Assembly (NCBI GenBank): GCA_921293015.1
Contig: OV121089.1
Span: 43,781,220-43,845,219 of the forward strand
Direction of reading: 5' to 3'
Origin: Phorcus lineatus
Lineage: Eukaryota > Mollusca > Gastropoda > Trochida > Trochidae
Length of the DNA stretch: 64,000 nucleotides
The translations under genes and the position numbers were made by a program. A model generated the notes under the pieces. The model was given only the letters and a program-made list of their open reading frames with translations. It did not search any database and was not told where the DNA came from. Below are positions 4,747-61,330 of this stretch, one piece after another. The stretch's first letter is position 1. Each line of letters starts with the position of its first letter.

Positions 4747-7623
4747 GATGGTAATTTTCAGATACAAAAGTAGTTCTTGATATATAATAACACCATTTCA
4801 TGTTAAAAATTTAATGACTTATACACTCAGTTAAGAAACCTTATAAGATCACTTTATTATGGTATATTTAGAATTAATATCGGAAATGAAGGTCATAGTT
4901 GTGAAAATGTTGGTCATTATCTCCTTGAATAGCCCTTTTATATGATAAAAAATATCTTCAGAGAGCTCTCATTAATGATAGGAAAAACAATACCATCTCA
5001 GATACTTCAATCTTTTATTGAGAAATTAAGCATACATAGAGGCTTCAATTTTCATATCAGTTGAGATTTCATCACGGAGATAGGAATACAAATTGAAAAG
5101 CTTTTTTAAATAGTAGTTGGAAAACTAAATCACATATCTAGTAATAAATAAGGAACTGGGAACTGGGAACCGGTTGCTAATTTATTTTGATGATAGACTG
5201 ATATCTAAACTCCTACTACATTTCAACATATCTCTGTGAATGATCAGCTTACCAACTGAGTACAATATGTTTCCTTTACAAAATAAGGAATAAGTATTGG
5301 TTCAAACGTTATTTCCTTCCTTCTTCAACACTGCGTTTTTTTCTAAACGATTCAACAATGTATTACTTCCATAACATTGACAACGGTTTAATCATCAATA
5401 CCGAAGCGTCGCAGCCGTTTAACAAAACAACTGAATACTTCTAACGAATTATACTTTCTATGAATAATAACATTTAGTTTCTACGAATTTTAAAGCCTTT
5501 TTATTTCAAGAGTGCAATATTTCGTTGTATATATAATGAAATCCTTTTCAACAACAAAATGCCCCCAATCAGACACAAACGGAAGAAATATGGTATTCAT
5601 AAACACTAAATCTTTAACTCAAACCGTTCATAGATTCACTGCTTAGAAAATGTCTAATGTATCGATGTATTTATGTATTTAATACAACTCCCCTGACAAC
5701 TCACACGACCATCCACGTAGCAAAGTTGACGGGAGACACGATTCCTCTGTAGGCGTACAGACACGACAGAGAGACAAATCGTGAACAGATCATTCAACTT
5801 AAGGCTGCTAAAAATAAGACCATAGCGTTAGACGAAAGTTCATAATCATTGAACATATAACTTGGACATATACTAGTTAAAGGATCCTTTTCTTCCAAAC
5901 TGCCGAGTTTTAATTGAACAAAACTGAAAATTGGAAAACAAAAGTACGAATGTTCTTTTGGCTTGAAGGAAAACAGAAATGTGTAATCAGGAATAAAATT
6001 AATTTATCAACCATCGAGTTTACAAACCAATAAAGACAATGAAATATACACAAAATAAAAAGGTGCAACTCGCTTAAATTTGTATACGTATCTGTGTGGT
6101 ACAATAACCCTGAATGAACGAATTAATCGGAATAAATACAAGATGGTTATCCGGAATTACTGACACGAGAAAATGGAGGAACTGCACTGAAGAAGTGGAA
6201 AAGCTTAATCATCATTTTCCTTGGACTTCACCATGGTTGATGCATCGCTATCAAACACGTGCTGCCAGGGCTGACCACAAACCTTGTACAATACCAGAAT
6301 TGGAGGGAGTTCCTAGCAATACTTATCTAATCAAACGAAAACATACACTATGCCGAGTGACACTTTATGACTGTCAATCAAAAGCTGCATATACACATAC
6401 ATCATAAGCACCCTTTTTTGGAGTACACACTTAATTATACACCCATTTTAATATATAAGCTGCTGTATCCAGGTTGTCTGAAAGTTGGACTAAACCAAGA
6501 GCTTTATACCATTACTATCTCCCAGTATATTCATATGCTCCGCATCCATAATACTTTTATACATTTGTCTTACTAAGTAAGAGAAATCCTCCGTTATGAA
6601 TACACCGGTACCTCACAGTGACTTGGCCTGACTCAGTAAAGCAGCTTTCATAGTAAAGTCCAAATACTTTACGATGATTGATTTACCTCTATTGACTCTG
6701 TGAGGACGTAACTTTGTATACTAGTAAGTCAATATTCATCTTTAATTTATGTACCGTGAAACGGGTCGGCCCAACAAACGCATTGCCCACAATCATTATC
6801 ATTTACTGTATTGTCCTCATCAGAAAGAACATGTTTTGTTTATCAAATGTGATGTCACATGCTTGTTGTGTATGTCGTGTTGTTACTAAGTGAAAAAAGC
6901 TTCTTGTCTGATTCTTAGAGAAGGAACAACTTGGAAAACGACTGTGCTAATGACTGTTTGTAATCAAATTGTATAAATCATACGTCCTACCATTAGGGTA
7001 AGAACTGACCATTATTTAATTTTAAACTTCCATATGACTTTCGGAAAATCCCGTTCTTTGAGACTTTTTAAGAAGCTCAACCTTGTGACTCGCTGTTCAC
7101 GCAAACATTCATTTAGACTATGAAGGTTTTGTTCATGAATGGCTCTGCTCTTTAGCCCGTCAACATTCCTCATGTTCATGTGTTTTGCTACACAACCGGC
7201 GTCCAGTTGGTCAGTGGTGCTGCTATACTCGCATAATTATTTGTTTTTGGACTTTATTTCATACTGTTAATTAGAATTAAGATTTCAATGCACTTTTAAA
7301 ATTCACTCTCGAATTGTTCAAAAGTTATGATTAATGTTTCTGAACGAATATTTTTGAACGAACGGTGAATGAATTCAACATTCCAATTGAAAAACTTCAT
7401 GTGAATATCAGTTCATATTTTATGCTCATCATTGCTTTTTACCTATATGTTATTACAAACGAGAAAAAAATAATTAATTCACAGTGTTTTCTATTCATAA
7501 TTCGTTACAATTCCTTTTTGTACGTGGTCATAAACACCATAGGCCTATTTACTACCATGATCAATATCACGGTTGCTGGAAAAGAAGTCATCATAAAGGT
7601 AATGTACATACTACAAAGGTTCG
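4747..7623. other. Intergenic, no supported gene
   Basis: I find no exon that I can assign. The longest frames (6114-6407 and 7365-7721 on plus) have random, AT-driven composition. A phrase AACTGGGAACCGGTTGCTAA near 5158-5177 resembles the minisatellite unit at 31.4-31.6 kb, so it may be a solitary unit of that family. Confidence 0.35.
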
Positions 7624-10398
7624 AAAAAGAATATTTTATAAATATTTGCACCAATATATGTATTTGTATATTCAACAACACAATTAGTCTTTTAATCTCT
7701 ATTTCGTTAGAGTTGTATTAATAAAATATATTAAGGCTATTCCGATGAACAATCTATCAACGTATACAGTCGCAAAAAGCGTAAAAACCAAACAAAGCCA
7801 CGCTGTCGTTCACGCATAAAGAGTTGTCGAATGAAATTCAAGTTTTGAAAATATTTATGTATACATAATAGTAAGTAGATATTTCTAACACTATATTTCA
7901 AACACATAACTACAACTCTCACCTCTCAATTTACAGTCTTAATCATATGTAAAATATCGATTAAAATATCTGATCACAAATTTTTAAGTTCAAATTTTTC
8001 AGGCGTGAACAGTTTCTCCGTTTACAGTCATCTTGACCTGTCTCTCTCGCCAGCGCTACATTATCTTCTCATTGTCCCAATCCACAAAGCAGAAAAACAA
8101 ATGTCACATATAATGGTACAACTGTAGATCGTTACTTGTATAAAAATCATCAATTCAAAGGAAAGAAACTGTTTTGCGTTTACAAAAGATATTTCATTGT
8201 TTACATTTTGATATTTAGTGTCCCATTTATCTTAATTAGGTTTTCATCTATTTAGATGTGACTCGTGCGAAACTAAAACAAAGTTACAAAGCACTATCCA
8301 GATGTTATTTGAATATTCAACTCTTTCTTTTGTAAACATGATATGTTTGTACATGCACTCGGTTACTTAACAAATGTTGTCAGTGAATAATATGATATGT
8401 TTACCATTAACATACGGCAGTCAGACAAAAACTGCCTGAAAAACTATGTAAGGTTGACGTATAATGTTGATGCTTAATATCGGTCACGAACTATAATGAA
8501 CTGCATTGCTCGTACGATTTTGAGTTGTATATTAACTTAAGTAATTTAGACCTGTTGAACCTAAACAGGACGAGTCCTCAATATACAACCTTCAAATTCG
8601 ATTATTAATGTGGATCTCATATCGATCTCGATGTAATTGTTCAGTCATGCGTTTACAAGGATGCATAAAACGGTATAAAAAAAGTATGGATATTTGTGTT
8701 TGCGCCATTCCATACATGCCATGCTCCAATGCATGCTCATGGCGCTACATAAGTAAGAAATGAAATATGAATGATTATACAAAATATATTCCACAGTAAA
8801 ACATATTTACTAGACTAACATATAGTCCCTAAAAAAAAGATTTCACTAAAATGTAATTTGTAATTTTTGTAATTAAATAATACAAATAGGAGTTACTTGT
8901 AACTTGATAAATTATCATTGCTTAATTTCACGCCTTTGGCTGAGGCAACTAGACTTGCCAACATTTTCTAGACTTAAGAAGGCTCCTTTAATATTTTGCC
9001 ATAAGGTCTGGATGACAGACTTCATGTTTACTTGTGTCTTGTCTAGTTTGAAACAACATTTGTTTAACATCTTCTTGGCAAAACAAGGCTAAGTAAGTCT
9101 ATATAAGTGATTATTGATAGATTCCTAAAGTCTCTTGGAACAACATTAGAAACCTATAACTTGAACATAATCTAATTAAACTGAACTATTCTAAACAACT
9201 CGTATAAATACACGATCAAAAGAAACGACACAAGTTAAAATGAAAATCACCCTTGGGTGTTTAAGAATCCTTTCAATTTGTTATACAATAATTACAAAAG
9301 CCAACTAAATTAAGCTTTGATCTTCTGCATTTTTGTTATCATCGCTTTGATATAGTCTTAACCAGGCAAGACAGGATAGTGAAATAAAGCTTATGTGGCG
9401 TGAATGATGACGTCGCACATAAATGAGGGAAAACAAATAAATTTCTGAGATGACACATTTTGTTGAACACATGGTGTGCGTTGATAAAGGAAATAACTTT
9501 CTTGAGCCAGCAACCTTGAAGACTGGGCGAGGGGGCGCCCCATTGTCAGACACTTAATTTAACAGATTTACAAAGGCTGTTGCCCATCAAGAAAATGGAA
9601 TCTTCCAACAAATACCCCACTTGTTATACAGCAGGGTCAAAAATGACAGAAATGGATCCTTCCTTGAGTTGACCCCAACTCATACCCCACTTTTTGTTGC
9701 CACTTGGCAAGAAAGATTGTAAAATGACAAAAAGATGATTGTACCAAAGTGAAAATATTTTGACACAACTCGCTGATTAAAATTATGTCAAAGGCAAACG
9801 GTACGGCTCGCGTAACGGAGCCTGGTGAGATCTGCACACGTAATCTAATGGAGCATTTAAGACTTCCTTTTAATGAGAATTGTCGATATATGTATAGACA
9901 TATTCATAAATTGTTTGTATTTTCCATATACATGTTACAATGTTGACCATATATAATTTTATCTTATGTTGTTCCTGTATCAATATGTTTTTCCATCTGA
10001 TATAGCTATAATCGAAGGACCTTAGAAGATTGGTTCAGTCAGAAACATCCTACATGTATGGTTCCTCTTTCTTGTTTTATATTGATAATTTACAATAAAA
10101 TGTTTCTCAGGTATGAATATTTTATATATACTTTCTTCAAGGATCTTGTTCTTTTTAAGGTTTGCGATATCGTACCATTTATATAAATGCAACATATCTA
10201 TTATAAATCGATACTAAGATATCGCGTTGCACGAGTCTACTAAATTACTAAACTACATGTAGAGTTTTGCTGAAGGTAACTTTTCATTAATATTTTACTT
10301 GTATCAAGTGCAATAATATATAGTTTATCGTATCTACTATGATGATTGTCTTAAATGATACATTTATTTTTCCACTATGGTCACTTCATGTCACGCCA

Positions 10399-10430
10399 TG
10401 GCCGAGGTGAATTGTGATACCCCTCGGCCA
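10399..10430. promoter_or_regulatory. GC-rich hairpin upstream of exon 1 (copy 1; repeated in copies 2 and 3)
   Basis: The perfect 9-base arms TGGCCGAGG and CCTCGGCCA enclose a 14-base loop. A second short stem, GCCCC to GGGGC, follows at about 10475-10498. Both lie about 400 bases upstream of the signal-peptide exon and are conserved at 15356-15387 and 20327-20358. They stand out from the AT-rich background. Any regulatory role is conjecture. Confidence 0.3.
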
Positions 10431-10823
10431 CACATTTAGTTGATGTATTCATTATGTTTACAGAATAAACTCAACGCCCCAGTCTATTCTATCAGGGGCC
10501 AAGAGGCGCATGATATGCCACATAATCAGGAATAACTTATATGTATTTAACAATTATCTGGTTTCATGTCATTATTAATTTTCATATCATAGTGAGTATA
10601 TTTATGATTAGTAAGTGTATACCATGATCTATTTAATACTCGTAGTTTTGAATCTACAAGAAACCTGGCGTGTCACATCACTGAAGGAGCTCATCTTTGT
10701 CGATCTTATTTCTCAATTATTCATGAGTCTTTTTACGATTCAAGTAAACATCTGTTCATCAATTAATCATCTGTGTAACTGTGTATTAAAGACAGTTTGT
10801 GCGGTGACTAAGTAAATTACAAG

Positions 10824-10902
10824 ATGCGACTGACATGGAGAGAGGTGCATTTTGGCATCGTACTGATTTTCTACTGCTTCTTCACACCTTGTACGAGAAC
10901 AG
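10824..10902 (+). CDS. Signal-peptide first exon, tandem copy 1
   Basis: The exon opens with ATG and encodes 26 residues beginning MRLTWREVHFGIVLIFYC and ending PCTRT, plus one base. The strong donor GTAAGT follows, so the exon is in phase 1. It has a basic start, a hydrophobic core and a polar end, which is the pattern of a cleavable secretory leader. The sequence is identical in all three array copies. Copy 3 (20752-20830) is nearest to the body exons that begin at 24224. This copy is intact and could splice to the same body as an alternative first exon, with a ~13.3 kb intron. Confidence 0.6.
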
Positions 10903-11304
10903 GTAAGTTAATTATATTACTTACATTCGAAGATAAATATCAACTTTAAATTTGATACCATCCTAAAATCATGTTTATACTTTGGTTATACCTCTGATAA
11001 TTTATTTCAAATGAAAAAGGAAGTGATCGCAATTAATTTTAGCCGTGTAGTCAATTGCAAGATATAATGACTTTCATCACATCATAAATGTTTTTTTGCC
11101 GTTAAATAGGTAAAGTCGTCGTTTCGACCAACTTTCATCCTGTTTCATTTGTTATGGAAGCCAACTACAACCACAATGCAACCACATGAGATTTTATACT
11201 CGATGTACTTATAGACTTGGGAGATACTTTTACTAATAAGAAGGATTTCTCAGTTATTCGGGGTACAAATGCTTAGCAAACATTATGTGTCGATCATTCA
11301 AAAA

Positions 11305-11868
11305 GATTAATCTTTGACCAATCTCATTGAAATCAGTTCGAAACTTGTCCCTTGTACCTTGCTGCGGTTCTTGATGTGACCACGGCTCTTATTTTCAGAC
11401 GGCCGTGACTGCCAGATTTCGTCAGCCAATGAGCATCGTGGCTGAAAGACAATAGCAACTTTTGAATTGAAATTAAAAAAATCTCATTTAACCTAAGTAT
11501 CTCGGGATTCGAGCTATTTCTGACCCTAGAAAAGCCGAGCTGTTATGAAAGCAAAATGATTGTGCGTTTGTATACTATCATGACGAATACACTCACATTT
11601 GGTCGGAAACCTAAATGCAACAATAATTCTGTTCATTTTTAGGTTATCTATCAAAATATTTGACAAAACATTTTTCAAAGCGTCCCCTTACATTCAACTT
11701 TCCGCAATCTTTGCTGATCAGACAAAAACGAAATGTATGTTAGAATAATTGAAGGTGAAAGGTCACAGTCAAGGCCGTCTGACAAATCAATTCAAGAACC
11801 GTAGCGAGGTAGGAGGGCAAGTTTCGATCTGATTTAAATGAGACTGATTTTTTAAAACAATATTCTTT
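11305..11868. repeat. Foldback (inverted) repeat inside the tandem unit, copy 1
   Basis: The arm at about 11305-11415 (CAGTTCGAAACTTGTCCC, then GGTTCTTGA and CAGACGGCCGTGACTG) recurs inverted at about 11745-11868 (GGGCAAGTTTCGATCTGATT in reverse sense). The arms are about 110 bases and imperfect, and enclose about 330 bases. The same element recurs at about 16280-16845 and 21255-21810. It looks like an old foldback transposon carried along by the triplication. Confidence 0.55.
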
Positions 11869-12457
11869 AACCTGTACCAACATACTATGTGGTTCATTAA
11901 GTACTTTTCATTAATAACACATTTGGCTTGTGTATCAGTTTACAAACATTGATATTATTTTATTGTTTAGTGGAAGAATTTCCTCTCTTTGAACGTTTTA
12001 ACAGTGTTAATAAGTGTCATTTTTACTAAATGCATTTTCAGGTAATAGATTTACCGAGGATTTTAATTCCAATCAAACTGCAAACCTATTTAATTATCAG
12101 ATTGATTTTATTAGGTTATAGTCCAGCTTGTGGTTTGAGTCGCACAATCTGAATTAATCAAGCTTTTTGTTTCGTTATTTTGTTTTGAGAAGAATTTAAA
12201 CTACAAGGCAAAAGAAAGGTTTCACTCATTTTTAAAGACTATAAAATGAAAATAACGCAGATATGAGAGTTCAGACGATTGCTTTATAAATAGATACATG
12301 TGTCCAATATTCTCTTTAAAGAACATTCCAATGTCGGCATTTAAGTTGCCCCAATACATAAGGAAAGAGAAAGGGGTGCGATATTTTTTTAAAATGTGGA
12401 GTTAAAATACAAGTACACAGAAACCTTCAGTAGTCACAGAAATCACGGAGTCTGTCA

Positions 12458-12556
12458 TCAGTAGCGAGTGTGACCACCCTTAGCATCAAATAAAGCAAGT
12501 TCACGTCTCCACATTGAAGTCTTCAGGGGTCGGATGATCATCAGTGACTTCCATAT
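12458..12556 (-). pseudogene. Truncated Tc1/mariner transposase 3' end (array copy 1)
   Basis: On the minus strand the segment ends in GGHTRY followed by TGA. That is the classic C-terminal signature of Tc1/mariner transposases. The fragment is cut off at 12556 by the array junction, whereas the same sequence in copy 3 continues into the rest of the transposase. This shows that the duplication breakpoint lies inside the transposon. Confidence 0.65.
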
Positions 12557-15500
12557 TCCAAAAGAATATTTTATAAATATTTGCACCAATATATGTATTT
12601 GTATATTCAACAACACAATTAGTCTTTTAATCTCTATTCCGTTAGAGTTGTATTAATAAAATATATTAAGGCTATTCCGATGAACAATCTATCAACGTAT
12701 AGAGTCGCAAAAAGCGTATAAACCAAACAAAGCCACGCTGTCGTTCACGCATAAAGAGTTGTCGAATGAAATTCAAGTTTTGAAAATATTTATGTATACA
12801 TAATGGTAAGTAGATATTTCTAACACTATATTTCAAACACATAACTACAACTCTCACCTCTCAATTTACAGTCTTAATCATATGTAAAATATCGATTAAA
12901 ATATTTGATCACAAATTTTTAAGTTCAAATTTTTCAGGCGTGAACAGTTTCTCCGTTTACAGTCATCTTGACCTGTCTCTCTCGCCAGCGCTACATTATC
13001 TTCTCGTTGTCCCAATCCACAAAGCAGAAAAACAAATGTCACATATAATGGTACAACTGTAGATCGTTACTTGTATAAAAATCATCAATTCAAAGGAAAG
13101 AAACTGTTTTGCGTTTACAAAAGATATTTCATTGTTTACATTTTGATATTTAGTGTCCCATTTATCTTAATTAGGTTTTCATCTATTTAGATGTGACTCG
13201 TGCGAAACTAAAACAAAGTTACAAAGCACTATCCAGATGTTATTTGAATATTCAACTCTTTCTTTTGTAAACATGATATGTTTGTACATGCACTCGGTTA
13301 CTTAACAAATGTTGTCAGTGAATAATATGATATGTTTACCATTAACATACGGCAGTCAGACAAAAACTGCCTGAAAAACTATGTAAGGTTGACGTATAAT
13401 GTTGCTGCTTAATATCGGTCACGAACTATAATGAACTGCATTGCTCGTACGATTTTGAGTTGTATATTAACTTAAGTAATTTAGACCTGTTGAACCTAAA
13501 CAGGACGAGTCCTCAATATACAACCTTCAAATTCGATTATTAATGTGGATCTCATATCGATCTCGATGTAATTGTTCAGTCATGCGTTTACAAGGATGCA
13601 TAAAACGGTTTTATGTCAGTTGTAATATAAAATATAATAAGTATGGATATTTGTGTATGCGCCAGTCCATACATGCCATGCTCCAATGCATGCTCATGGC
13701 GCTACATAAGTAAGAAATGAAATATGAATGATTATACAAAATATATTCCACAGTAAAACATATTTACTAGACTCACATATAGTCCCTGAAAAAAAGGTTT
13801 CACTAAAATGTAATTTGTATTTTTTGTAATTAAATAATACAAATAGGAGTTACTTGTAACTTGATTAATTATCAATGCTTAATTTCACGCCTTTGGCTGA
13901 GGCAACTAGACTTGCCAACATTTTCTAGACTTAAGAAGGCTCCTTTAATATTTTGCCATAAGGTCTGAATGACAGACTTCATGTTTACTTGTGTCTTGTC
14001 TAGTTTGAAACAACATTTGTTTAACATCTTCTTGGCAAAACAAGGCTAAGTAAGTCTATATAAGTGATTATTGATAGATTCCTAAAGTCTCTTGGAACAA
14101 CATTAGAAACCTATAACTTGAACATAATCTAATTAAACTGAACTATTCTAAACAACTCGTATAAATACACGATCAAAAGAAACGACACAAGTTAAAATGA
14201 AAATCACCCTTGGGTGTTTAAGAATCCTTTCAATTTGTTATACAATAATTACAAAAGCCAACTAAATTAAGCTTTGATCTTCTGCATTTTTGTTATCATC
14301 GCTTTGATATAGTCTTAACCAGGCAAGACAGGATAGTGAAATAAAGCTTATGTGGCGTGAATGATGACGTCGCACATAAATGAGGGAAAACAAATACATT
14401 TCTGAGATGACACATTTTGTTGAACACATGGTGTGCGTTGATAAAGGAAATAACTTTCTTGAGCCAGCAACCTTGAAGACTGGGCGAGGGGGCGCCCCAT
14501 TGTCAGACACTTAATTTAACAGATTTACAAAGGCTGTTGCCCATCAAGAAAATGGAATCTTCCAACAAATACCCCACTTGTTATACAGCAGGGTCAAAAA
14601 TGACAGAAATGGATCCTTCCTTGAGTTGACCCCAACTCATACCCCACTTTTTGTTGCCACTTGGCAAGAAAGATTGTAAAATGACAAAAAGATGATTGTA
14701 CCAAAGTGAAAATATTTTGACACAACTCGCTGATTAAAATTATGTCAAAGGCAAACGGTACGGCTTGCGTAACGGAGCCTGGTGAGATCTGCACACGTAA
14801 TCTAATGGAGCATTTAAGACTTCCTTTTAATGAGAATTGTCGATATATGTATAGACATATTCATGAATTGTTTGTATTTTCCATATACATGTTACAATGT
14901 TGACCATATATAATTTTATCTTATGTTGTTCCTGTATCAATATGTTTTTCCATCTGATATAGCTATAATTGAAGGACCTTAGAAGATTGGTTCAGTCAGA
15001 AACATCCTACATGTATGGTTCCTCTTTCTTGTTTTATATTGATAATTTACAATAAAATGTTTCTCAGGTATGAATATTTTATATATACTTTCTTCAAGGA
15101 TCTTGTTCTTTTTAAGGTTTGCGATATCGTACCATTTATATAAATGCAACATATCTATTATAAATCGATACTAAGATATCGCGTTGCACGAGTCTACTAA
15201 ATTACTAAACTACATGTAGAGTTTTGCTGAAGGTAACTTTTCATTAATATTTTACTTGTATCAAGTGCAATAATATATAGTTTATCGTATCTACTATGAT
15301 GATTGTCTTAAATGATACATTTATTTTTCCACTATGGTCACTTCATGTCACGCCATGGCCGAGGTGAATTGTGATACCCCTCGGCCACACATTTAGTTGA
15401 TGTATTCATTATGTTTACAGAATAAACTCAACGCCCCAGTCTATTCTATCAGGGGCCAAGAGGCGCATGATATGCCACATAATCAGGAATAACTTATATG

Positions 15501-15780
15501 TATTTAACAATTATCTGGTTTCATGTCATTATTAATTTTCATATCATAGTGAGTATATTTATGATTAGTAAGTGTATACCATGATCTATTTAATACTCGT
15601 AGTTTTGAATCTACAAGAAACCTGGCGTGTCACATCACTGAAGGAGCTCATCTTTGTCGATCTTATTTCTCAATTATTCATGAGTCTTTTTACGATTCAA
15701 GTAAACATCTGTTCATCAATTAATCATCTGTGTAACTGTGTATTAAAGACAGTTTGTGCGGTGACTAAGTAAATTACAAG

Positions 15781-15859
15781 ATGCGACTGACATGGAGAGA
15801 GGTGCATTTTGGCATCGTACTGATTTTCTACTGCTTCTTCACACCTTGTACGAGAACAG
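15781..15859 (+). CDS. Signal-peptide first exon, tandem copy 2
   Basis: This exon is identical to the copy at 10824-10902: ATG, 26 residues with a hydrophobic core, phase 1, donor GTAAGT. It is intact and could serve as an alternative first exon to the lectin-like body exons from 24224. The preceding ~400 bases, including two GC hairpins, are also conserved, so each copy may carry its own promoter. Confidence 0.6.
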
Positions 15860-17428
15860 GTAAGTTAATTATATTACTTACATTCGAAGATAAATATCAA
15901 CTTTAAATTTGATACCATCCTAAAATCATGTTTATACTTTGGTTATACCTCTGATAATTTATTTCAAATGAAAAAGGAAGTGATCGCAATTAATTTTAGC
16001 CGTGTAGTCAATTGCAAGATATAATGACTTTCATCACATCATAAATGTTTTTTTGCCGTTAAATAGGTAAAGTCGTCGTTTCGACCAACTTTCATCCTGT
16101 TATGCATGGTAATTTTCATTTGTTATGGAAGCCAACTACAACCACAATGCAACCACATGAGATTTTATACTCGATGTACTTATAGACTTGGGAGATACTT
16201 TTACTAATAAGAAGGATTTCTCAGTTATTCGGGGTACAAATGCTTAGCAAACATTATGTGTCGATCATTCAAAAAGATTAATCTTTGACCAATCTCATTG
16301 AAATCAGTTCGAAACTTGTCCCTTGTACCTTGCTGCGTTTCTTGATGTGACCACGGCTCTTATTTTCAGACGGCCGTGACTGCCAGATTTCGTCAGCCAA
16401 TGAGCATCGTGGCTGAAAGACAATAGCAACTTTTGAATTGAAATTAAAAAAATCTCATTTAACCTAAGTATCTCGGGATTCGAGCTATTTCTGACCCTAG
16501 AAAAGCCGAGCTGTTATGAAAGCAAAATGATTGTGCGTTTGTATACTATCATGACGAATACACTCACATTTGGTCGGAAACCTAAATGCAACAATAATTC
16601 TGTTCATTTTTAGGTTATCTATCAAAATATTTGACAAAACATTTTTCAAAGCGTCCCCTTACATTCAACTTTCCGCAATCTTTGCTGATCAGACAAAAAC
16701 GAAATGTATGTTAGAATAATTGAAGGTGAAAGGTCACAGTCAAGGCCGTCTGACAAATCAATTCAAGAACCGTAGCGAGGTAGGAGGGCAAGTTTCGATC
16801 TGATTTAAATGAGACTGATTTTTTAAAACAATATTCTTTAACCTGTACCAACATACTATGTGGTTCATTAAGTACTTTTCATTAATAACACATTTGGCTT
16901 GTGTATCAGTTTACAAACATTGATATTATTTTATTGTTTAGTGGAAGAATTTCCTCTCTTTGAACGTTTTAACAGTGTTAATAAGTGTCATTTTTACTAA
17001 ATGCATTTTCAGGTAATAGATTTACCGAGGATTTTAATTCCAATCAAACTGCAAACCTATTTAATTATCAGATTGATTTTATTAGGTTATAGTCCAGCTT
17101 GTGGTTTGAGTCGCACAATCTGAATTAATCAAGCTTTTTGTTTCGTTATTTTGTTTTGAGAAGAATTTAAACTACAAGGCAAAAGAAAGGTTTCACTCAT
17201 TTTTAAAGACTATAAAATGAAAATAACGCAGATATGAGAGTTCAGACGATTGCTTTATAAATAGATACATGTGTCCAATATTCTCTTTAAAGAACATTCC
17301 AATGTCGGCATTTAAGTTGCCCCAATACACAAGGAAAGAGAAAGGGGTGCGATATTTTTTTAAAATGTGGAGTTAAAATACAAGTACACAGAAACCTTCA
17401 GTAGTCACAGAAATCACGGAGTCTGTCA

Positions 17429-17527
17429 TCAGTAGCGAGTGTGACCACCCTTAGCATCAAATAAAGCAAGTTCACGTCTCCACATTGAAGTCTTCAGGGG
17501 TCGGATGATCATCAGTGACTTCCATAT
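17429..17527 (-). pseudogene. Truncated Tc1/mariner transposase 3' end (array copy 2)
   Basis: This fragment matches that at 12458-12556: minus-strand GGHTRY-stop, truncated at the array junction. In copy 3 the last residue is changed to Cys (GGHTRC). Confidence 0.65.
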
Positions 17528-20500
17528 TCCAAAAGAATATTTTATAAATATTTGCACCAATATATGTATTTGTATATTCAACAACACAATTAGTCTTTTA
17601 ATCTCTATTCCGTTAGAGTTGTATTAATAAAATATATTAAGGCTATTCCGATGAACAATCTATCAACGTATAGAGTCGCAAAAAGCGTATAAACCAAACA
17701 AAGCCACGCTGTCGTTCACGCATAAAGAGTTGTCGAATGAAATTCAAGTTTTGAAAATATTTATGTATACATAATGGTAAGTAGATATTTCTAACACTAT
17801 ATTTCAAACACATAACTACAACTCTCACCTCTCAATTTACAGTCTTAATCATATGTAAAATATCGATTAAAATATTTGATCACAAATTTTTAAGTTCAAA
17901 TTTTTCAGGCGTGAACAGTTTCTCCGTTTACAGTCATCTTGACCTGTCTCTCTCGCCAGCGCTACATTATCTTCTCGTTGTCCCAATCCACAAAGCAGAA
18001 AAACAAATGTCACATATAATGGTACAACTGTAGATCGTTACTTGTATAAAAATCATCAATTCAAAGGAAAGAAACTGTTTTGCGTTTACAAAAGATATTT
18101 CATTGTTTACATTTTGATATTTAGTGTCCCATTTATCTTAATTAGGTTTTCATCTATTTAGATGTGACTCGTGCGAAACTAAAACAAAGTTACAAAGCAC
18201 TATCCAGATGTTATTTGAATATTCAACTCTTTCTTTTGTAAACATGATATGTTTGTACATGCACTCGGTTACTTAACAAATGTTGTCAGTGAATAATATG
18301 ATATGTTTACCATTAACATACGGCAGTCAGACAAAAACTGCCTGAAAAACTATGTAAGGTTGACGTATAATGTTGCTGCTTAATATCGGTCACGAACTAT
18401 AATGAACTGCATTGCTCGTACGATTTTGAGTTGTATATTAACTTAAGTAATTTAGACCTGTTGAACCTAAACAGGACGAGTCCTCAATATACAACCTTCA
18501 AATTCGATTATTAATGTGGATCTCATATCGATCTCGATGTAATTGTTCAGTCATGCGTTTACAAGGATGCATAAAACGGTTTTATGTCAGTTGTAATATA
18601 AAATATAATAAGTATGGATATTTGTGTATGCGCCAGTCCATACATGCCATGCTCCAATGCATGCTCATGGCGCTACATAAGTAAGAAATGAAATATGAAT
18701 GATTATACAAAATATATTCCACAGTAAAACATATTTACTAGACTCACATATAGTCCCTGAAAAAAAGGTTTCACTAAAATGTAATTTGTATTTTTTGTAA
18801 TTAAATAATACAAATAGGAGTTACTTGTAACTTGATTAATTATCAATGCTTAATTTCACGCCTTTGGCTGAGGCAACTAGACTTGCCAACATTTTCTAGA
18901 CTTAAGAAGGCTCCTTTAATATTTTGCCATAAGGTCTGAATGACAGACTTCATGTTTACTTGTGTCTTGTCTAGTTTGAAACAACATTTGTTTAACATCT
19001 TCTTGGCAAAACAAGGCTAAGTAAGTCTATATAAGTGATTATTGATAGATTCCTAAAGTCTCTTGGAACAACATTAGAAACCTATAACTTGAACATAATC
19101 TAATTAAACTGAACTATTCTAAACAACTCGTATAAATACACGATCAAAAGAAACGACACAAGTTAAAATGAAAATCACCCTTGGGTGTTTAAGAATCCTT
19201 TCAATTTGTTATACAATAATTACAAAAGCCAACTAAATTAAGCTTTGATCTTCTGCATTTTTGTTATCATCGCTTTGATATAGTCTTAACCAGGCAAGAC
19301 AGGATAGTGAAATAAAGCTTATGTGGCGTGAATGATGACGTCGCACATAAATGAGGGAAAACAAATACATTTCTGAGATGACACATTTTGTTGAACACAT
19401 GGTGTGCGTTGATAAAGGAAATAACTTTCTTGAGCCAGCAACCTTGAAGACTGGGCGAGGGGGCGCCCCATTGTCAGACACTTAATTTAACAGATTTACA
19501 AAGGCTGTTGCCCATCAAGAAAATGGAATCTTCCAACAAATACCCCACTTGTTATACAGCAGGGTCAAAAATGACAGAAATGGATCCTTCCTTGAGTTGA
19601 CCCCAACTCATACCCCACTTTTTGTTGCCACTTGGCAAGAAAGATTGTAAAATGACAAAAAGATGATTGTACCAAAGTGAAAATATTTTGACACAACTCG
19701 CTGATTAAAATTATGTCAAAGGCAAACGGTACGGCTTGCGTAACGGAGCCTGGTGAGATCTGCACACGTAATCTAATGGAGCATTTAAGACTTCCTTTTA
19801 ATGAGAATTGTCGATATATGTATAGACATATTCATGAATTGTTTGTATTTTCCATATACATGTTACAATGTTGACCATATATAATTTTATCTTATGTTGT
19901 TCCTGTATCAATATGTTTTTCCATCTGATATAGCTATAATTGAAGGACCTTAGAAGATTGGTTCAGTCAGAAACATCCTACATGTATGGTTCCTCTTTCT
20001 TGTTTTATATTGATAATTTACAATAAAATGTTTCTCAGGTATGAATATTGTATATATACTTTCTTCAAGGATCTTGTTCTTTTTAAGGTTTGCGATATCG
20101 TACCATTTATATAAATGCAACATATCTATTATAAATCGATACTAAGATATCGCGTTGCACGAGTCTACTAAATTACTAAACTACATGAAGAGTTTTGCTG
20201 AAGGTAACTTTTCATTAATATTTTACTTGTATCAAGTGCAATAATATATAGTTTATCGTATCTACTATGATGATTGTCTTAAATGATACATTTATTTTTC
20301 CACTATGGTCACTTCATGTCACGCCATGGCCGAGGTGAATTGTGATACCCCTCGGCCACACATTTAGTTGATGTATTCATTATGTTTACAGAATAAACTC
20401 AACGCCCCAGTCTATTCTATCAGGGGCCAAGAGGCGCATGATATGCCCCATAATCAGGAATAACTTATATGTATTTAACAATTATCTGGTTTCATGTCAT

Positions 20501-20751
20501 TATTAATTTTCATATCATAGTGAGTATATTTATGATTAGTAAGTGTATACCATGATCTATTTAATACTCGTAGTTTTGAATCTACAAGAAACCTGGCGTG
20601 TCACATCACTGAAGGAGCTCATCTTTGTCGATCTTATTTCTCAATTATTCATGAGTCTTTTTACGATTCAAGTAAACATCTGTTCATCAATTAATCATCT
20701 GTGTAACAGTGTATTAAAGACAGTTTGTGCGGTGACTTAGTAAATTACAAG

Positions 20752-23700
20752 ATGCGACTGACATGGAGAGAGGTGCATTTTGGCATCGTACTGATTTTCT
20801 ACTGCTTCTTCACACCTTGTACGAGAACAGGTAAGTTAATTATATTACTTACATTCGAAGATAAATATCAACTTTAAATTTGATACCATCCTAAAATCAT
20901 GTTTATACTTTGGTTATACCTCTGATAATTTATTTCAAATGAAAAAGGAAGTGATCGCAATTAATTTTAGCCGTGTAGTCAATTGCAAGATATAATGACT
21001 TTCATCACATCATAAATGTTTTTTTGCCGTTAAATAGGTAAAGTCGTCGTTTCGACCAACTTTCATCCTGTTATGCATGGTAATTTTCATTTGTTATGGA
21101 AGCCAACTACAACCACAATGCAACCACATGAGATTTTATACTCGATGTACTTATAGACTTGGGAGATACTTTTACTAATAAGAAGGATTTCTCAGTTATT
21201 TGGGGTACAAATGCTTAGCAAACATTATGTGTCGATCATTCAAAAAGATTAATCTTTGACCAATCTCATTGAAATCAGTTCGAAACTTGTCCCTTGTACC
21301 TTGCTGCGGTTCTTGATGTGACCACGGCTCTTATTTTCAGACGGCCGTGACTGCCAGATTTCGTCAGCCAATGAGCATCGTGGCTGAAAGACAATAGCAA
21401 CTTTTGAATTGAAATTAAAAAAATCTCATTTAACCTAAGTATCTCGGGATTCGAGCTATTTCTGACCCTAGAAAAGCCGAGCTGTTATGAAAGCAAAATG
21501 ATTGTGCGTTTGTATACTATCATGACGAATACACTCACATTTGGTCGGAAACCTAAATGCAACAATAATTCTGTTCATTTTTAGGTTATCTATCAAAATA
21601 TTTGACAAAACATTTTTCAAAGCGTCCCCTTACATTCAACTTTCCGCAATCTTTGCTGATCAGACAAAAACGAAATGTATGTTAGAATAATTGAAGGTGA
21701 AAGGTCACAGTCAAGGCCGTCTGACAAATCAATTCAAGAACCGTAGCGAGGTAGGAGGGCAAGTTTCGATCTGATTTAAATGAGACTGATTTTTTAAAAC
21801 AATATTCTTTAACCTGTACCAACATACTATGTGGTTCATTAAGTACTTTTCATTAATAACACATTTGGCTTGTGTATCAGTTTACAAACATTGATATTAT
21901 TTTATTGTTTAGTGGAAGAATTTCCTCTCTTTGAACGTTTTAACAGTGTTAATAAGTGTCATTTTTACTAAATGCATTTTCAGGTAATAGATTTACCGAG
22001 GATTTTAATTCCAATCAAACTGCAAACCTATTTAATTATCAGATTGATTTTATTAGGTTATAGTCCAGCTTGTGGTTTGAGTCGCACAATCTGAATTAAT
22101 CAAGCTTTTTGTTTCGTTATTTTGTTTTGAGAAGAATTTAAACTACAAGGCAAAAGAAAGGTTTCACTCATTTTTAAAGACTATAAAATGAAAATAACGC
22201 AGATATGAGAGTTCAGACGATTGCTTTATAAATAGATACATGTGTCCAATATTCTCTTTAAAGAACATTCCAATGTCGGCATTTAAGTTGCCCCAATACA
22301 CAAGGAAAGAGAAAGGGGTGCGATATTTTTAAAAAATGTGGAGTTAAAATACAAGTACACAGAAACCTTCAGTAGTCACAGAAATCACGGAGTCTGTCAT
22401 CAGCAGCGAGTGTGACCACCCTTAGCATCAATTAAAGCAAGTTCACGTCTCCACATTGAAGTCTTCAGGGGTCGGATGATCATCAGTGACTTCCATATGT
22501 TAAACAGAGCCGTCTCAGGTTCCAGCCGATCGTTTATAGATGGTACAAGCTGTCTCTATGTGATCCCAAAGGTGTTCAATGGGGTTCATATATGTTGAGC
22601 TGGCTGGCCATTGCAAAAAATTGACGTAAACTTTCTCAAAATAGTCGCTAACAATTCGGGCAGTTAAAGGTTTTGCGTTGTCGTGTTGCAATATCAATCT
22701 CCTAAGCTGTTGTTGGATGAAAGAAACGACCACATCAGTGCCACATCAATGTATCGCTGACCAGTCAGATGCCCGAGCGTACGTCATTTGGGCACAAATC
22801 CCTCAAAACACCATGATGCCTCCGCCTCCAAAAGCAAATTGGCGCGAGACGCTCACCCTTCGTTGACAAACTTGAACCCTGCCATCGTTCCTGAAAAGGT
22901 AAACCTAACCTCGTCTGTAAACATCAACCTCTCTCAGTCCTGTTCTTACCACCGGCTTACCGTACGTGTCAATAGCAGTGTAAACGGGTCAAAGTCATTC
23001 CACGAAAGGGCGGTGGTCTCGTTTACTAGCCAAACGAAGTGGACGAAGGATTGTTCTGATGACATGACCGAGTGCCGACGCCGCTGTTAATTTCGCCTTT
23101 ACGAATCGCTTCGGAGGTGAATCGGCCTTATGTAACAATCTTCAGCCACAGTTACACCTGGCATATGAAAAGTTTATTCACTTTCTACCGATCTTGGTGC
23201 AAATATCATGTAATTTGGGTTTGGTTTAAACGTCAATAAAATAACTTCAGCAGACATGACAAAGCGTCTCCAATCTCTTGTGCTAAAATTCGGATTTTGG
23301 CATGATCAAAAGGACAGAAGGCGTCACATTTCTCACATCCTAAATTTCGATTAAAATGTTCCAATTTTACTTTCTCAGAAAAAAAATAAGCAAAATCATA
23401 TTGACTTGATGCAAACGAACAAACATGTCTCGGTTTTAAAGTTCATTATTACTCATAAAAAGAATTTTTAGGGAAAAATAAGATTTACAGTTATAAAAAA
23501 TTTGACCCCTGGTCACTTCAATGACCTGCCAAAAACTATTACGGTTAACTGTACGGTATAGCGTATGTTTGCGTTAAAGGGAAATGGATCTTCACTTATG
23601 TATTAAAAAATAACAATTACCCGTTTCTTTTTCGCAATGCTACCATGCTTCAAACAAATGCCAATTTACATGATATTTGCACTACGATTCAACAAACTTT

Positions 23701-26700
23701 TGGAATGCAGCTGTTCTCGATCTTGGTCTGTCCCGTTTCTATCCTTTCTGCGTGTAGCCTTCTGATGGTGGTTTTGCCTTTTGACGTTTGAGAGCCCCAA
23801 TAGTGGACATACCGATCGCTTGGTCACATGCGCTTGCGTAAGTCTTGTGATACTTTTGGTGGCCTTATGTCACTAAAAGTCTGCTCTTTCATAGAAGGGT
23901 ATTTATGCGATATTGCCACACGTGCATCACAAACCATGCATCAAAACACGTTTTCCACGTATTTGTGGATGCACAATTCCAGTGGCTGCGTTCGATGCGA
24001 TGCGCTCGTGTAGAGGAAACGATGTAGTAATGCTATCATTTCCTGCCTAGAATTACACCCGTACCAGCCCTCTTAATGTTTTCATGACTAAACACAAAAG
24101 CGAAGCCGTTCTTTTGCCACGGAGTTTAAGAAAGTAACATTAACATTATGTACAGATAAATATTTACATGGGAAATTGGATATCAAAGTGTACGTTTATT
24201 ATGGTTAACTCATTTCATTTCAGACAGAGTTGTATATGAGCTCCAGAAAGGTCGTAAGTATTATTGGTTCACTATATATTTCCTTAAAGCGATGTACATA
24301 GTACATAAGAAACACATTATATGGATAACAACTTTTGTGTTGTGAAACATTGATCTGATGGAGGGTATGACGGTTTAAAGTATTAAAGAGGAGAAGTAAC
24401 GCATAAATTTGATTATTACAAATTATTATGTCTATTCGCTTCACTTATAAGAATCAACAGAGCCCAGAAAATGAGAAAAAAATACCATTTAATTCGACTA
24501 CTAGGCGACCTTTTATACCCCTGTTTTGGATAACCGCCTAATGAGTCTCGCAAACGCTTAGACCAAATCACCGAAGCATGACTCGAATCCATGGCCACGC
24601 CCAGTGTGTGACGTGCTAGGCGTCAGCTGAAGGTCCAGCCCTTTGATTTTCTATGTATTTTTAAGCTTATTCAACAGCAAAATAGAGGCAATAGCATGAC
24701 CGAAAGAATTCCAAAATACGATGTGTTACTCCTTCATGATATCAACTTTCCTTCTCAGTCGTCAAAATTTATTTTGATTGTCTGTGACAATCCTTGGACG
24801 CGGTTTTCTTGAGTGGGTTAATATCACAAAGGTAAAGAACTTAGTCGGTGAGAGATCTACAACTATGGGATAATACGTAGTGTTATATCATGTATTTATC
24901 GATCTGAAATTCTAGATTGTCTCTAAAAAATGAAAGTTTTTGTAATAAACGGGAGACAATGTAAAAAAAGATTAATGTTTACTGTAGAAAAAAATATTTT
25001 GTTTCACTCTTCTTTAATGCCAACTAAGTACTTAGTGGATGATCCGTTTGTATTGAACTAACAAAATAATATTACATTGTTATCTAGTATAACATCTCGG
25101 CAGGACACGCCTCAGTGACCACGGGCCAGTTCAGTTCTGTTCACTGGTGCTAATTAGCTAGTGATTCGAAAAAGCCGTATTAAAGTTGTTTATCGGCCGA
25201 TTTCGAAAATTTAATTTCAGGTTACTGGCAAGTTAGAATACATATTTTATGAAACACGAAAGTTGCCATTGGTCATTTCAGTCGATCTTTAAAGTAGTGT
25301 CCTTAAACGGTTTTGTATTCGAAATGTTCAAGAGAATATTTGAGAAGGATGGACGCAGAGTTAAATGAGATACACACGGCCAACCAGGGTCTCATGAAAC
25401 ACTAACGTAACCTTGAAACACTTTATGTCTACGGTCCTTTACGTTTGTTAAGTCATATGTAAGAATTCCGGAAATGGGGTCAGAAGGCCGGTCGTGTTCA
25501 TTTAACCGTGCCGAACATACGATAAATTCAACAGGGAATCAACTTTGACTTCTAAAACTTCATGACTAATAGAGTTAAGAAAATATATACATCGCTTCTT
25601 AAACTTCAATATTTATTCTAAACTAGGGCCACGTTTCACTATTGTTGATATTATATTAATTGCTTCAAATTTGTGTTGAAAAAAGGTACCTTAGCCTCTA
25701 TGTATTCATGCTAAAAGTGGAAGAAATTGAGAAATTGGTCGATTTTGTTACCGTTTTAAACTACTTTCCTACAAATATATCTCAAATGTATACGTTGTTA
25801 TATCTAGAATAATATTTCAGGAAACACTATGTAACATTTAAATTCTTTACTTAATGATCTGTTGAATATAATAGTGTCTTTGACACTGCATGTTCTTAAT
25901 TGAGCTACTTCCCTTAGATTAGTGACCCCCTTACTCTCTTCGCTGCTGTCTTGCGATATAGGGACGTAGAGGAATATATCAATAGTAGGTACAAAATGGT
26001 CCCATGTAATTATGTCACTGGCTTTTAGAGATTTAGATAATCATTTCAATAACAGACCGGTGTATCCAACTCCTTTTTTGTAAAGATATAGACGTATATA
26101 CCTGTACGAGTCATAACACTAATAAATAGCCTACTTATAAGTAGTCTTAAAAGTAGCCATCACAGATCTAAATCTTTACATAATTTGATTTAGTCCATGG
26201 GGTTCGATCTGCTTAGACAAGTAGAGCTGCATGAATGGTCGGGTGTCCACATTCAAAGTCTTCCCCTGCATGCCCAGGGCTTTGGTTGACAGTCATGAGG
26301 CTATTGGGCCCTCTAACTACGCCTTATCTATCTTTGAGCAATAGCAGCTAGACGTTTCCCCAATTCTTTTTCTCACTTTGAGTGCGACAATGTCGGGAAC
26401 AATGTCGCTTTTCATCGTTGCATATAATTCTAACGTTATAAAGTCTAATAGCTTTATCTATGGTTTGTCCGTTGAACTTGAACAAACTCAAAAGTCATTA
26501 GCCAGTAGGGTTCTAATAACTACTTGGACAGTAGTTTTGGATATATAAAAACGCGGATGGTAATTATTTATAAATTGTTAATGTTCTGATAACATGCTTT
26601 TAAAATTTTAACTAAATCGATTGAGTTATAAGGACAGAAAATAAATTACAGGTCTTCGCTATAAACAAACTGAAGAACAAGAAATATACACTTAACGCAG

Positions 26701-29700
26701 GTTCTGAAGACGAAAATCTCAGTGGATGGGGTGTTATTCGAGTTTTTTTAAAATTATGTACACAGATGAAATCAGGTGTCTCTTTTCTAGAGAACCTTAT
26801 TGCACTGAATGAAGGGTTTCGAAATCATCATCATCAAAGTAGTAACAATCTGTAAATGGGGGTATTTTAAGGGTTCTTCACAAGGATTACGGAAGTTTGT
26901 CAAACTTCTACAGTTATGGCTGATAGAATGAAGGCCTTTATTTCACGACCAAGTAAACACGTACGCTTCCCCCAGGGTTACTATGTCCGAAATTCTTGCA
27001 TATGATAAAGAGATATTTAATATTATGTACATGATGATATTTATCCTGTAAACTGAAAGCAAATGAACTTGCCTTGTCTATACATCATATTAAATCATGT
27101 AAAATCATATCATATCATTTCATATTATATGGAAATTTGGACAATGACAAATCGCTACATGATTAAAACAAGATCACAAAACTGTAACTGAACCTGTTGT
27201 AACCTATAGAATGTCAGCGCACTATAACCAATGGTTCGCAATTCCAGCCGAAGCTCGCAGGATTCACCGCCATGCATATCCAGAATAGTGTTGCGGGATT
27301 TCTCCCTTCAATAATAATTACAGACGTGACAAAGGTTAAATACGCTTTGCGTTTAACCCCAATCGTATCACTTCACGTCAACATGTTGCCAATTAGTATG
27401 AACATTAATAATTTGAAAAGCGGAATTAGATTCTCGTCACTTAATCGAGCATGGTACGGTCATTAAAGAAATCCTTCTATTGATATAGACAAAAATAGCC
27501 ATGCAATTAGTTTCCATTTTCGTGATATCACTTTATTCTTTAAGAAAACGTTCTCCATTGCATTCATGACTTATGATTCAGAGACCAACATAGCGCTGAG
27601 AAGACCAGTGCTAACGAGTGGAGGGAACTCACCTACAGAAGCCAACGACGGTGACTCTAAGTCAAAGTGGCCTTGTGTCAACGTAAATGTGTGCAATGGT
27701 TCACTTGGATGCTGGTGGCAGGTCGACTTTGGCGACGTCAAGACTGTCGACACAGTACTGGTGACAAACAGAGGGGATTGTTGTCGTATGTCTTCTTTTG
27801 ACGTATTTACATACAATTTATTTGATACAGCGCACGCTGATTTAAAAGGCCTTAGAAATCTTATCAAATCCATATAACACTAAGTTTAGGGTTAGGGGTT
27901 AGGTGAAGACCAACATAGCCACCCTAACCCTAATTATGATATTATTTTCAGTCTTGGCTGAAAAAGGGCTTTCTGGCCTCTTAAGCCATAGACCTGGGTT
28001 TAAATCCCAGTAGAAACGCTAAACGTGTGACTTAGGTCTCATATTGTACTGTGTCCCTAGGCGCGGTACTTCATCCGCGTTGCACTCTGTCTACATGTAT
28101 CCTGCTCAATCAGAATATATAAATTCGCTCTAGAAGGATCACAGGCGCCAGACTCTGAAATAACAATATCATGTAAATATATGTACATAAAGCTATATAA
28201 TATAAACAAGGTCTGACATTAGTGATAGAGTCTAGTCTGCATATAGGACCGGAAATGGTTTCCTGGTTCGGTCTGGCGCCAGTGAGCAGGAAGGTCTAAA
28301 AGTGTACCTGATGTGTACAGGCTACATGGTCCCCACTTTGTGTCGTTAAGGGAAATTAACAATGTTGGTTAGTACATACCTACACATAAGATTGTTATTT
28401 TTTGGGATCATCTTATTTTACATACATCATGACGTTTTCGTAAAAAAAAATCAATAGTAAATTCCGACCCTCGCAGTCGTTTTTCTGCTTCAGCTGTAGC
28501 CTAAAATAACTTGAAGTTTTTCCTAAACAATTAAAATGAATTACCTTAGTACACTCCATTTGATTCCTTATCTTGGTGTAATTTAGGTGCATCAGTGACC
28601 CCAAAAGTTATATCAAACCTAGCTTTCTATCTCTCACTATGCCATCTTTCAGTCTTTTCCTTCAGCCTATCGATCCCTTTTCTGTCTGATCTGTCCACAC
28701 TCGATCTTTTTAAAACATAAAACCCAAACAACTAACTCACACACTCATTACAAATACAATTTCTCAGTAACCTCAAGTAGTTTTAAGCATTACTTTATTG
28801 TAAATAGGTTTACCGTATAAGACTTAGTGTTCTTAAATTTTTTTACTTCAGCCGGGCGTATAGCCGACTTCTCTCTAGACGTGTATGACACAGATCCAGC
28901 TGTCGACCCTTCAGGCCAACCTAAACATTGCGCCTCTTATCCTGGTCCCATGAGTTCACCGGGCGTCACAGAGACCATTCACTGTGAGGTTTCACTCCAG
29001 GGCAGGTTTCTCCGTATTTCTCAACCAACAAACAAGTTGCAGTTCTGTGAGTTGCAGGCCTTTGGAACTCCGACTTATCGTGTTGAACCTTGTGAGTATT
29101 GTTTGTTTTAGTTGGATCGATTTTTCTTCTTATAAAAAAGGAATTATAATGAGTGAATTCAAGTTCATATTCAGTTGAACTGTTATTGACGAACATCTTT
29201 TCCGGTTATCTCCAGCTATCTCAATGGCGCATCATCTCAATAACAACCCTGTGATTATATCTATGGATGATAAGAGTGGTTATGTAATTGGAGTGATACT
29301 CACGATAATAACATCAACTAGATATTTGTCATCATGTGCTACTAGTGCTAACTAATTACCAAATAAATCGATGTCATCAACTAGAAAAGCAAAAGGCTAG
29401 TGCTAACAACGCCAAGTTGTTAATCACAAATAATTATTAATGTCATAAAATTATTATATCTATACCACTCATGTTGTTATCGAATACATATATATATTGG
29501 GTCTATTCCACTATTCTAGTAGGGGTCACAGGAGCTAATTAACTTGTTTACTGAATCGTTAAAGTGTCTGCGAAATGAAGCCTCGGCGTGTTGGGAGCCG
29601 ACCTTTTAAAGATGTGCTCATTGGGTGGCTCAAAAGGTCTGGAGACCAATGTTTCGAAGTACTTATATGACTTGTGTCTGGCTCTTATGGTTTCAGTAAG

Positions 29701-30119
29701 GCGATTGCGCTAACTGTCCGTGGAATTAGAACTATAAACTGCTCGCAAGATACTGTTGTTTGGTTAAAAAACAAACTGCTTTAAAGCGTAGGTTCTATGT
29801 TCTTCGTAGGAACCCTACAAAGATATATCAATATCATATTCGAACATATTATTATATATTTTTCTCAGGTGGTTCATTCCAGGCTAGTCCAAGTTCTCGT
29901 TATCCTGCTTTAAACATCGACAAAGCTGGACAGGATGTGACGTCACGAGCTGCATGTGCGGCAGAATGTAGCAAGAATACTTCCTGTGCTGGTTTCAACA
30001 TCAAATACTCTCCAAATGTTCTTTGTGAACTGATTCTTGAAGCTATCACTTGGTCTCCGATTGCAAGTTCTGAATTTGACTTTTATCAAATGGATCACTG
30101 TTGGCATATATGTGAGTGA
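20752..30119 (+). CDS. Secreted F5/8C (fucolectin-type) – PAN/apple domain protein
   Basis: Hand-built model with exons 20752-20830, 24224-24253, 27582-27785, 28852-29091 and 29869-30119, giving 267 aa. Every junction is GT–AG and phase 1, and all join in frame. Residues 1-26 are a signal peptide. Residues ~38-184 form a discoidin/F5-8C-like domain of the fucolectin type: NIALRRPVLTSGG, AND, GCWWQVDFG, VTNRGDCC, GRFLRI and FCELQAFG mark the expected strands and cysteines. Residues ~186-265 form a PAN/apple-like domain (AACAAECSKNTSCAGFN… CEL… DHCWHI). The protein is probably extracellular and may bind glycans as a recognition lectin; this is a family-based inference. Exon 1 exists in three tandem copies; I chose the nearest. 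The stop follows a donor-like GTGAGT at 30112, so a longer form with further exons is possible. Confidence 0.75.
22400..24010 (-). pseudogene. Decayed Tc1/mariner-type transposase
   Basis: Read on the minus strand, pieces of a DDE transposase appear in order. An N-terminal helix-turn-helix-like piece (TTIRRLHAERIETGQTK) lies near 23700-23775. Next come the first Asp region (FTDEVRF, near 22910), the second Asp region (LQHDNAKP.TARIVSDYFE), the third acidic site (NPIEHLWD, 22560-22590) and the C-terminus GGHTRC-stop at 22400. Stops and frameshifts interrupt it throughout, and a ~530-base element is inserted at 23168-23701. It is inactive. Its 3' end is shared with the array copies to the left, which carry only that end. 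Confidence 0.8.
23168..23701. mobile_element. Non-autonomous inverted-repeat element nested in the Tc1 fossil
   Basis: The left end has AAAAGTTTATT and then GTGCAAATATCATGTAA. The right end has the inverted counterpart, TTACATGATATTTGCAC then AACAAACTTTT. The arms are about 50-60 bases with gaps. The ~530-base segment interrupts the transposase between its helix-turn-helix part and its catalytic part, and it shows no coding potential. Confidence 0.5.
24600..27270. other. Intron of the lectin-like gene, no further feature
   Basis: This stretch lies between exon 2 (24224-24253) and exon 3 (27582). I see no additional exon in phase 1, no transposase and no strong tandem repeat. It is AT-rich throughout. 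Confidence 0.4.
27885..27933. repeat. Inverted pair of telomere-like repeats
   Basis: TTTAGGGTTAGGGGTTAGG (27885-27903) is followed 18 bases later by CCCTAACCCTAA (27922-27933). These are two to three units of the metazoan telomere hexamer facing each other, within an intron of the lectin-like gene. They are short and could be a decayed transposon end or a repair scar. Confidence 0.6.
27955..28120 (+). mobile_element. Old tRNA-derived SINE fragment
   Basis: The phrase GACCTGGGTTTAAATCCC resembles a B-box (GGTTCGAATCC) within a tRNA-like TψC arm. It is followed by GTGTCCCTAGGCGCGGTACTTCATCCGCGTTGCACTCTGTC, quoted here in part, which resembles the conserved 3' domain found in several animal SINE families. 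Boundaries and a target duplication are not clear. It lies in the third intron of the lectin-like gene. Confidence 0.4.
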
Positions 30120-59404: not shown

Positions 59405-59501
59405 TAATGTTACTTATTTTGTGGTTCGTCGTGATAGAGTAACAGAATATTTTCTGAGAATATCATCATGATTATTTTTGTGCGAAGGTGCGCTTCCGAG
59501 C

Positions 59502-59507
59502 AATAAA
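59502..59507 (+). terminator. Poly(A) signal of the complete P450 gene
   Basis: AATAAA lies about 100 bases after the stop codon. A second AATAAA is at 59598-59603. Either gives a short 3' UTR that ends well before the convergent P450. Confidence 0.55.
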
Positions 59508-61325: not shown

Positions 61326-61330
61326 TTCCA

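Follow-up and report, generated by a model that had tools for sequence, protein, structure and literature searches.

Three tandem copies of a leader exon in front of a single F-type-lectin-like gene body in Phorcus lineatus: a probable young partial duplication

We analysed a stretch of 64,000 nucleotides from the gastropod Phorcus lineatus (assembly GCA_921293015.1, contig OV121089.1, here C15:43781220-43845219; hereafter the window, with positions counted from its first base), which carries a single head-to-tail array of three units in front of a gene for an F-type-lectin-like protein. BLAST of the window against itself aligned 7625-17527 with 12560-22498 (99.3% over 9939 columns) and 7625-12556 with 17531-22498 (98.7% over 4968 columns), an identity that rules out chance as the origin of the repeats. 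The units lie on the plus strand at 7625-12559 (copy 1, 4935 bases), 12560-17530 (copy 2, 4971 bases), and 17531-22498 (copy 3, 4968 bases, adjoining the gene body). Copy 1 consists of upstream sequence, a leader exon, the start of intron 1, a stub of a Tc1-like element, and a terminal 4-base filler (TTCC); two stretches of 22 and 14 bases are common to copies 2 and 3 and missing from copy 1. The three-unit array is a real feature of the assembly, and the proposal of the initial annotation that a unit of ~4.95 kb with a leader exon is present three times is borne out (unit lengths 4.94-4.97 kb).

The rest of the genome (958 Mb, 74 contigs) was searched with three parts of the unit (7624-9500, 20300-21300, and 21300-22498), each DNA search of the genome scoring the best 40 candidates of a first look. 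Among these, near-full-length matches to the three parts were found only at the three places in the array. Most of the shorter matches were to dispersed repeats; some upstream pieces of the 7624-9500 query matched near a paralog (paralog A, described below) and at C15:28.37 Mb, and no match of the 20300-21300 query outside the array covered the leader exon. Two dispersed repeats lie within the unit, one (20300-20433, with copies in units 1 and 2) ~0.3-0.45 kb 5′ of each leader and with many matches, the other (21096-21258, likewise repeated in units 1 and 2) ~0.3 kb into intron 1 and with three matches elsewhere. Tandem Repeats Finder, whose longest period is 500, returned 0 rows over 5000-28000, and at gathering scores Rfam had 0 matches in the window. 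When Pfam was run on 4 of the 8 open reading frames (ORFs) of at least 70 amino acids over unit 1, no family exceeded its cut-off (best: DUF7202, E = 0.0041), so that this half of the ORFs revealed no second gene in the unit.

The coding part of the leader exon lies at 10824-10902 in copy 1, 15781-15859 in copy 2, and 20752-20830 in copy 3, in each case on the plus strand. Every leader has 79 bases, i.e., 26 codons (MRLTWREVHFGIVLIFYCFFTPCTRT) and one further base, ends in phase 1, and is followed directly by GTAAGT (donor CAG/GTAAGT, the slash marking the exon end). The three exons are identical and in the phase that exon 2 needs, as had been claimed. The encoded peptide is signal-peptide-like, judged from its hydrophobic core rather than by a trained predictor. 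A scan for signal-peptide-like first exons ending in phase 1 returned, for the plus strand of the window, these three leaders only, and for the minus strand one exon. As a control, we scanned the plus strand of 20 sequences of 54 kb from a first-order Markov model; 19 had 0 matches and one had 1, from which we judged it unlikely that the leader is a chance exon. The 14- and 22-base indels had been suggested as markers of the copies; they do exist, but they are common to copies 2 and 3, one being ~2.1 kb 5′ of the leader and the other (the 14-base one) ~240 bases into intron 1, and neither is in the spliced mRNA unless this has a very long 5′-untranslated region (5′-UTR). Copy 3 transcripts can be told apart by substitutions at -44 and -14 from the ATG, where copy 3 differs and copies 1 and 2 are alike, provided that the 5′-UTR extends that far.

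The gene body follows on the plus strand. Exon 2 (24224-24253) is a symmetric phase 1-1 micro-exon of 30 bases encoding (D)RVVYELQKG, and is the only short symmetric exon that our search accepted between leader 3 and exon 3. Exons 3 (27582-27785) and 4 (28852-29091) encode the first and second parts of an F5/8C domain, and exon 5 (29869-30119) encodes a PAN-like domain and the stop codon, with AATAAA at 30672. Exons 3-5 each have one strong tblastn match in the window, all other matches being weak (E ≥ 3.9), which agrees with the earlier statement that the body is present once only. Splicing the leader to exons 2-5 gives a protein of 267 amino acids with four introns, all in phase 1.

In this protein, Pfam recognised F5_F8_type_C_2 (E = 1.9e-12) and F5_F8_type_C (E = 1e-8), both above cut-off, and gave a weak match to PAN_1 (19.6 bits vs. 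a curated cut-off of 21.4, E = 8.1e-4). The best of six matches to solved structures were the F-type lectins FBP32 (3cqo, E = 9.8e-15) and Anguilla agglutinin (1k12, E = 4.7e-13), so homology to the domain of F-type lectins is present. The gene resembles these two lectins in the homologous F5/8C-type domain, the RxDx4R motif, and the signal-peptide-like leader; it differs in having a single domain followed by a PAN-like module, and a Val in place of the fucose-contact His. The fucose motif is given as a His upstream of RxDx4(R/K) with a gap printed as 24 (PMC5712786), compared with a gap of 26 in 1k12. The RxDx4R part is present here as RGDCCPGR; at the 1k12 position of the His there is Val, and paralogs A and B have no His there either. 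Fucose binding is therefore not to be assumed. The five-exon gene thus encodes a probably secreted F5/8C (F-type-lectin-like) and PAN-like protein.

A protein search of the genome listed 45 matches in all, weaker relatives included, and two of them are close paralogs on the same contig, 5.5 Mb from the array: paralog A (C15:38319440-38324149, minus strand) and paralog B (C15:38306047-38313706, plus strand). Both share the five-exon structure. Exon lengths are 79/30/204/240/251 in the array gene, 73/30/213/240/251 in A, and 79/27/213/240/251 in B, the micro-exon thus having 30 bases in A and 27 in B, and all introns are in phase 1. The pairwise ratio of nonsynonymous to synonymous divergence (dN/dS) is 0.40 between the array gene and A, 0.29 between the array gene and B, and 0.28 between A and B, values in keeping with a constrained protein. 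A tblastn search of 50 kb recovered the leader of B (E = 0.002); that of A was placed by a DNA alignment at the expected position, with the same ACAG/GTAAGT donor and an ATG chosen by hand. The two paralog leaders match each other over 47 bases (74%, E ~ 7e-4), and within the 50 kb examined neither has a full-length match other than itself. Around A, six of seven left-flank matches (5182-7459), the matches to the unit block, the leader, and exon 2 occur once each and in the same order, which is the unduplicated layout.

We assign the leader to the body because of its position, donor, and phase, and because of the triangle formed by A, B, and the window. Two paralogs with the same five phase-1 exons and one leader each support the gene model, and with it the linkage of leader to body that was proposed at the outset; they also point to the triplication as derived. 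We accordingly read the single-copy layout, on this comparison of sequences, as probably ancestral and the array as derived. Collinear homology to A reaches at least 2.4 kb to the left of the array, so some of the kept upstream sequence lies outside the unit and is unrepeated. In the window, 5182-7459 and 17718-19406 correspond to C15:38330425-38345858 (minus strand), and over this span the array gene and paralog A are segmental paralogs. A short-period tandem repeat (C15:38324863-38325560) is located ~0.7 kb 5′ of the paralog A leader.

How the array arose can be read in part from its junctions. That between copies 1 and 2 (12556-12560, unstranded) reads CCATAT-TTCC-AAAAGAATA and is identical to that at 17527-17531, and the outer flanks differ from both. 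Neither the left flank (1.6 kb compared) nor the right flank (1.8 kb) matches the inside of the array by any stretch longer than 29 bases. The right breakpoint (22498) falls inside a relic of a dispersed Tc1-like element on the minus strand (22137-23090, outer ends approximate), which has a DDE_3 match below cut-off and GGHTR near the C-terminus, an ending that we take to be typical of Tc1 elements; each unit therefore ends in a stub of the element. Of the 40 places scored for the last ~360 bases of the unit, 37 lay elsewhere, matching at 80-83%.

The three copies differ at 34 substitution columns, 23 of which set apart copy 1, 10 copy 3, and 1 copy 2. In order along the unit, the copy-1 and copy-3 classes form four runs, a number as low as arose in 1 of 100000 shuffles, and a single switch, placed between columns 2411 and 2520, accounts for 32 of the 33 informative columns. 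Copy 2 is consequently of the copy-3 type on the left (up to ~14970-15079) and of the copy-1 type on the right. Left of the switch, copies 2 and 3 have 0 substitutions and are identical over ~2.5 kb; right of it, copies 1 and 2 differ by 2 substitutions and one 14-base indel. Such a mosaic is what unequal crossover would be expected to yield from an array of two copies. Between copies 1 and 3 there are 33 substitution columns in ~4.93 kb (0.67%), against a synonymous divergence (dS) of 0.35 between the array gene and paralog A, which makes the array far younger than the paralog pair. We attempted to polarise the array variants with paralog A, and only 4 of the 34 columns were usable, split 2/2, giving no direction.

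We favour, with a probability of roughly 0.68, the reading that the gene's 5′ part underwent a young partial tandem duplication, joined by filler and followed by crossover, which probably left redundant starts for one protein. The first breaks would have occurred 3.2 kb 5′ of the leader and in intron 1, inside the Tc1-like relic; the ends would have been joined via the 4-base filler to give two copies, and unequal crossover between these would have given the third, as read from the assembled sequence. The duplication is most likely young and possibly polymorphic in the population. Several observations weigh against this reading. The leader of paralog A was missed by tblastn, and its placement depends on alignment position and donor; blastn of the array-gene leader against the paralog region gave nothing at E ≤ 1, which suggests that leaders diverge fast. 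Five matches from 23161-23716 (intron 1) to the region of paralog A are out of order, and one left-flank match to the same region is inverted. There is no clear core promoter by the leader, the sole TATA-like word within 500 bases being TATTAAA at 40 bases from the ATG, and CpG content offers no promoter hint. The near-identity of copy 2 to its neighbours also fits an error in the assembly path.

The array might also be a neutral copy-number variant, segregating in the population, in which mainly one copy is transcribed and the others are passengers; we regard this as evenly balanced, and it differs from the preferred partial duplication in promoter use without being exclusive of it. Hardly anything separates copy 2 from its templates (0 substitutions on the left; 2 and the 14-base indel on the right), and at such divergence a 79-base exon is easily unchanged by chance. 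In an array that is young and partly homogenised, intact and identical leaders are expected without selection. A study of Drosophila yakuba reports that whole-gene tandem duplications rarely raise expression (at most 5 of 66, not above background), and that chimeric structures often alter it (PMC5460883), so a dosage effect is not to be assumed here.

It is unlikely that the array is an artefact in which one or two real units became three because the assembler duplicated a stretch or fused two haplotypes. That copies 2 and 3 do not differ over ~2.5 kb on the left is what a path error would yield. However, one substitution is peculiar to copy 2, the 14-base stretch distinguishes this copy from copy 1, the contig or scaffold is 49.6 Mb long, and the window contains no N. 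The unit junction with its filler should derive from reads, and at least one tandem duplication is therefore probably real.

We consider it improbable that amplification of promoter and leader is itself the trait, with the number of start regions varying between animals by unequal crossover and tuning the output or tissue range of a defence or recognition lectin, the protein being fixed. More doubtful again is the idea that the leaders are internal exons of transcripts starting to the left of the array, several of which in one mRNA would lead to a stop (an expression brake) or to a tandem-leader protein. AG sites do occur 5′ of the ATG in copy 3, the only copy considered here, and an added leader 3 would stay open and in phase 1 from 20720, 20741, and 20771 (the last within the leader). 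These open sites are weak, however (pyrimidine share 0.35-0.53), and each of the six AG sites that lie within 400 bases upstream and have a pyrimidine share of at least 0.65 leads, in the incoming phase, into a stop, so that serial inclusion of leaders is unlikely. A remnant of a whole-gene tandem array, with the bodies of the first two genes deleted, hardly deserves belief even with whole-gene paralogs on the same contig, as the two junctions match exactly, filler included, and between the units there is nothing of the body or right flank beyond matches of at most 29 bases.

Under a partial tandem duplication, a transcript that starts 5′ of any leader and uses its strong, consensus-like donor should be able to join the single exon 2; phase and paralog structure together indicate that transcripts from any copy would encode one and the same protein. 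The likely effect would be redundant, perhaps mutually interfering, start regions with the protein unchanged. Copy 1 would adjoin the old upstream neighbourhood and now have an intron 1 of ~13 kb; copy 3 would keep the old intron 1 of 3.4 kb, with the distal upstream region 10 kb further off. Use of three promoters, and so the multiplication of transcription starts that the initial annotation envisaged, is possible. If the starts are used, the locus is a natural test of extra promoters without extra coding sequence, with identical proteins, paralogs as the unduplicated comparison, and two substitutions marking copy 3. If they are unused, it illustrates a young partial duplication whose birth steps can still be read.

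Elsewhere in the window, exons matching 3-beta hydroxysteroid dehydrogenase (Pfam, two ORFs) lie at 40892-43061 (plus strand) and a cytochrome P450 exon (Pfam, E = 1.9e-15) at 61685-61996 (minus strand); ORFs from ~52180 to 63532, on both strands, resemble further P450 exons by eye only. A short dispersed repeat occurs at 27209-27343, 33067-33365, 57620-57847, and 62618-62832, and also just 5′ of exon 3 and 3′ of exon 5 of paralog B.

In UGT1, protocadherin, and similar clusters, tandem first exons differ and encode different N-terminal parts joined to shared downstream exons. The array resembles them in having several tandem first exons before one shared exon set; its first exons, in contrast, are identical and encode a leader only, and we rejected a variable-first-exon cluster of this type, in which first exons are diverged. 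Among the papers that our literature searches listed, judged by titles and abstract openings, we recognised no earlier account of the array's own layout in lectins or animals. A closer system is PEP1 of Arabis alpina, for which the report describes a tandem segment of ~2 kb comprising exon 1, part of the promoter, and part of intron 1, separate start sites by 5′ rapid amplification of cDNA ends (5′ RACE), both exon-1 copies joining the same exon 2, identical proteins predicted in one accession, and a layout polymorphic within the species (PMC3527215). The locus here likewise has a first exon repeated in tandem with adjacent upstream and intron sequence before one downstream body, and every first exon is intact, its donor being in the phase that the shared exon 2 requires. 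PEP1, in the same source, is a plant MADS-box gene with two copies, diverged upstream sequences, and starts mapped by 5′ RACE, whereas the present case is an animal lectin-like gene with three near-identical copies and putative starts. The locus had been called unusual compared with whole-gene lectin expansion; whole-gene duplication has also occurred in this family (A and B), and PEP1 is a precedent. By analogy, PEP1 as described there shows that such a layout can work, and with a proven precedent the layout of the array is not a new kind.

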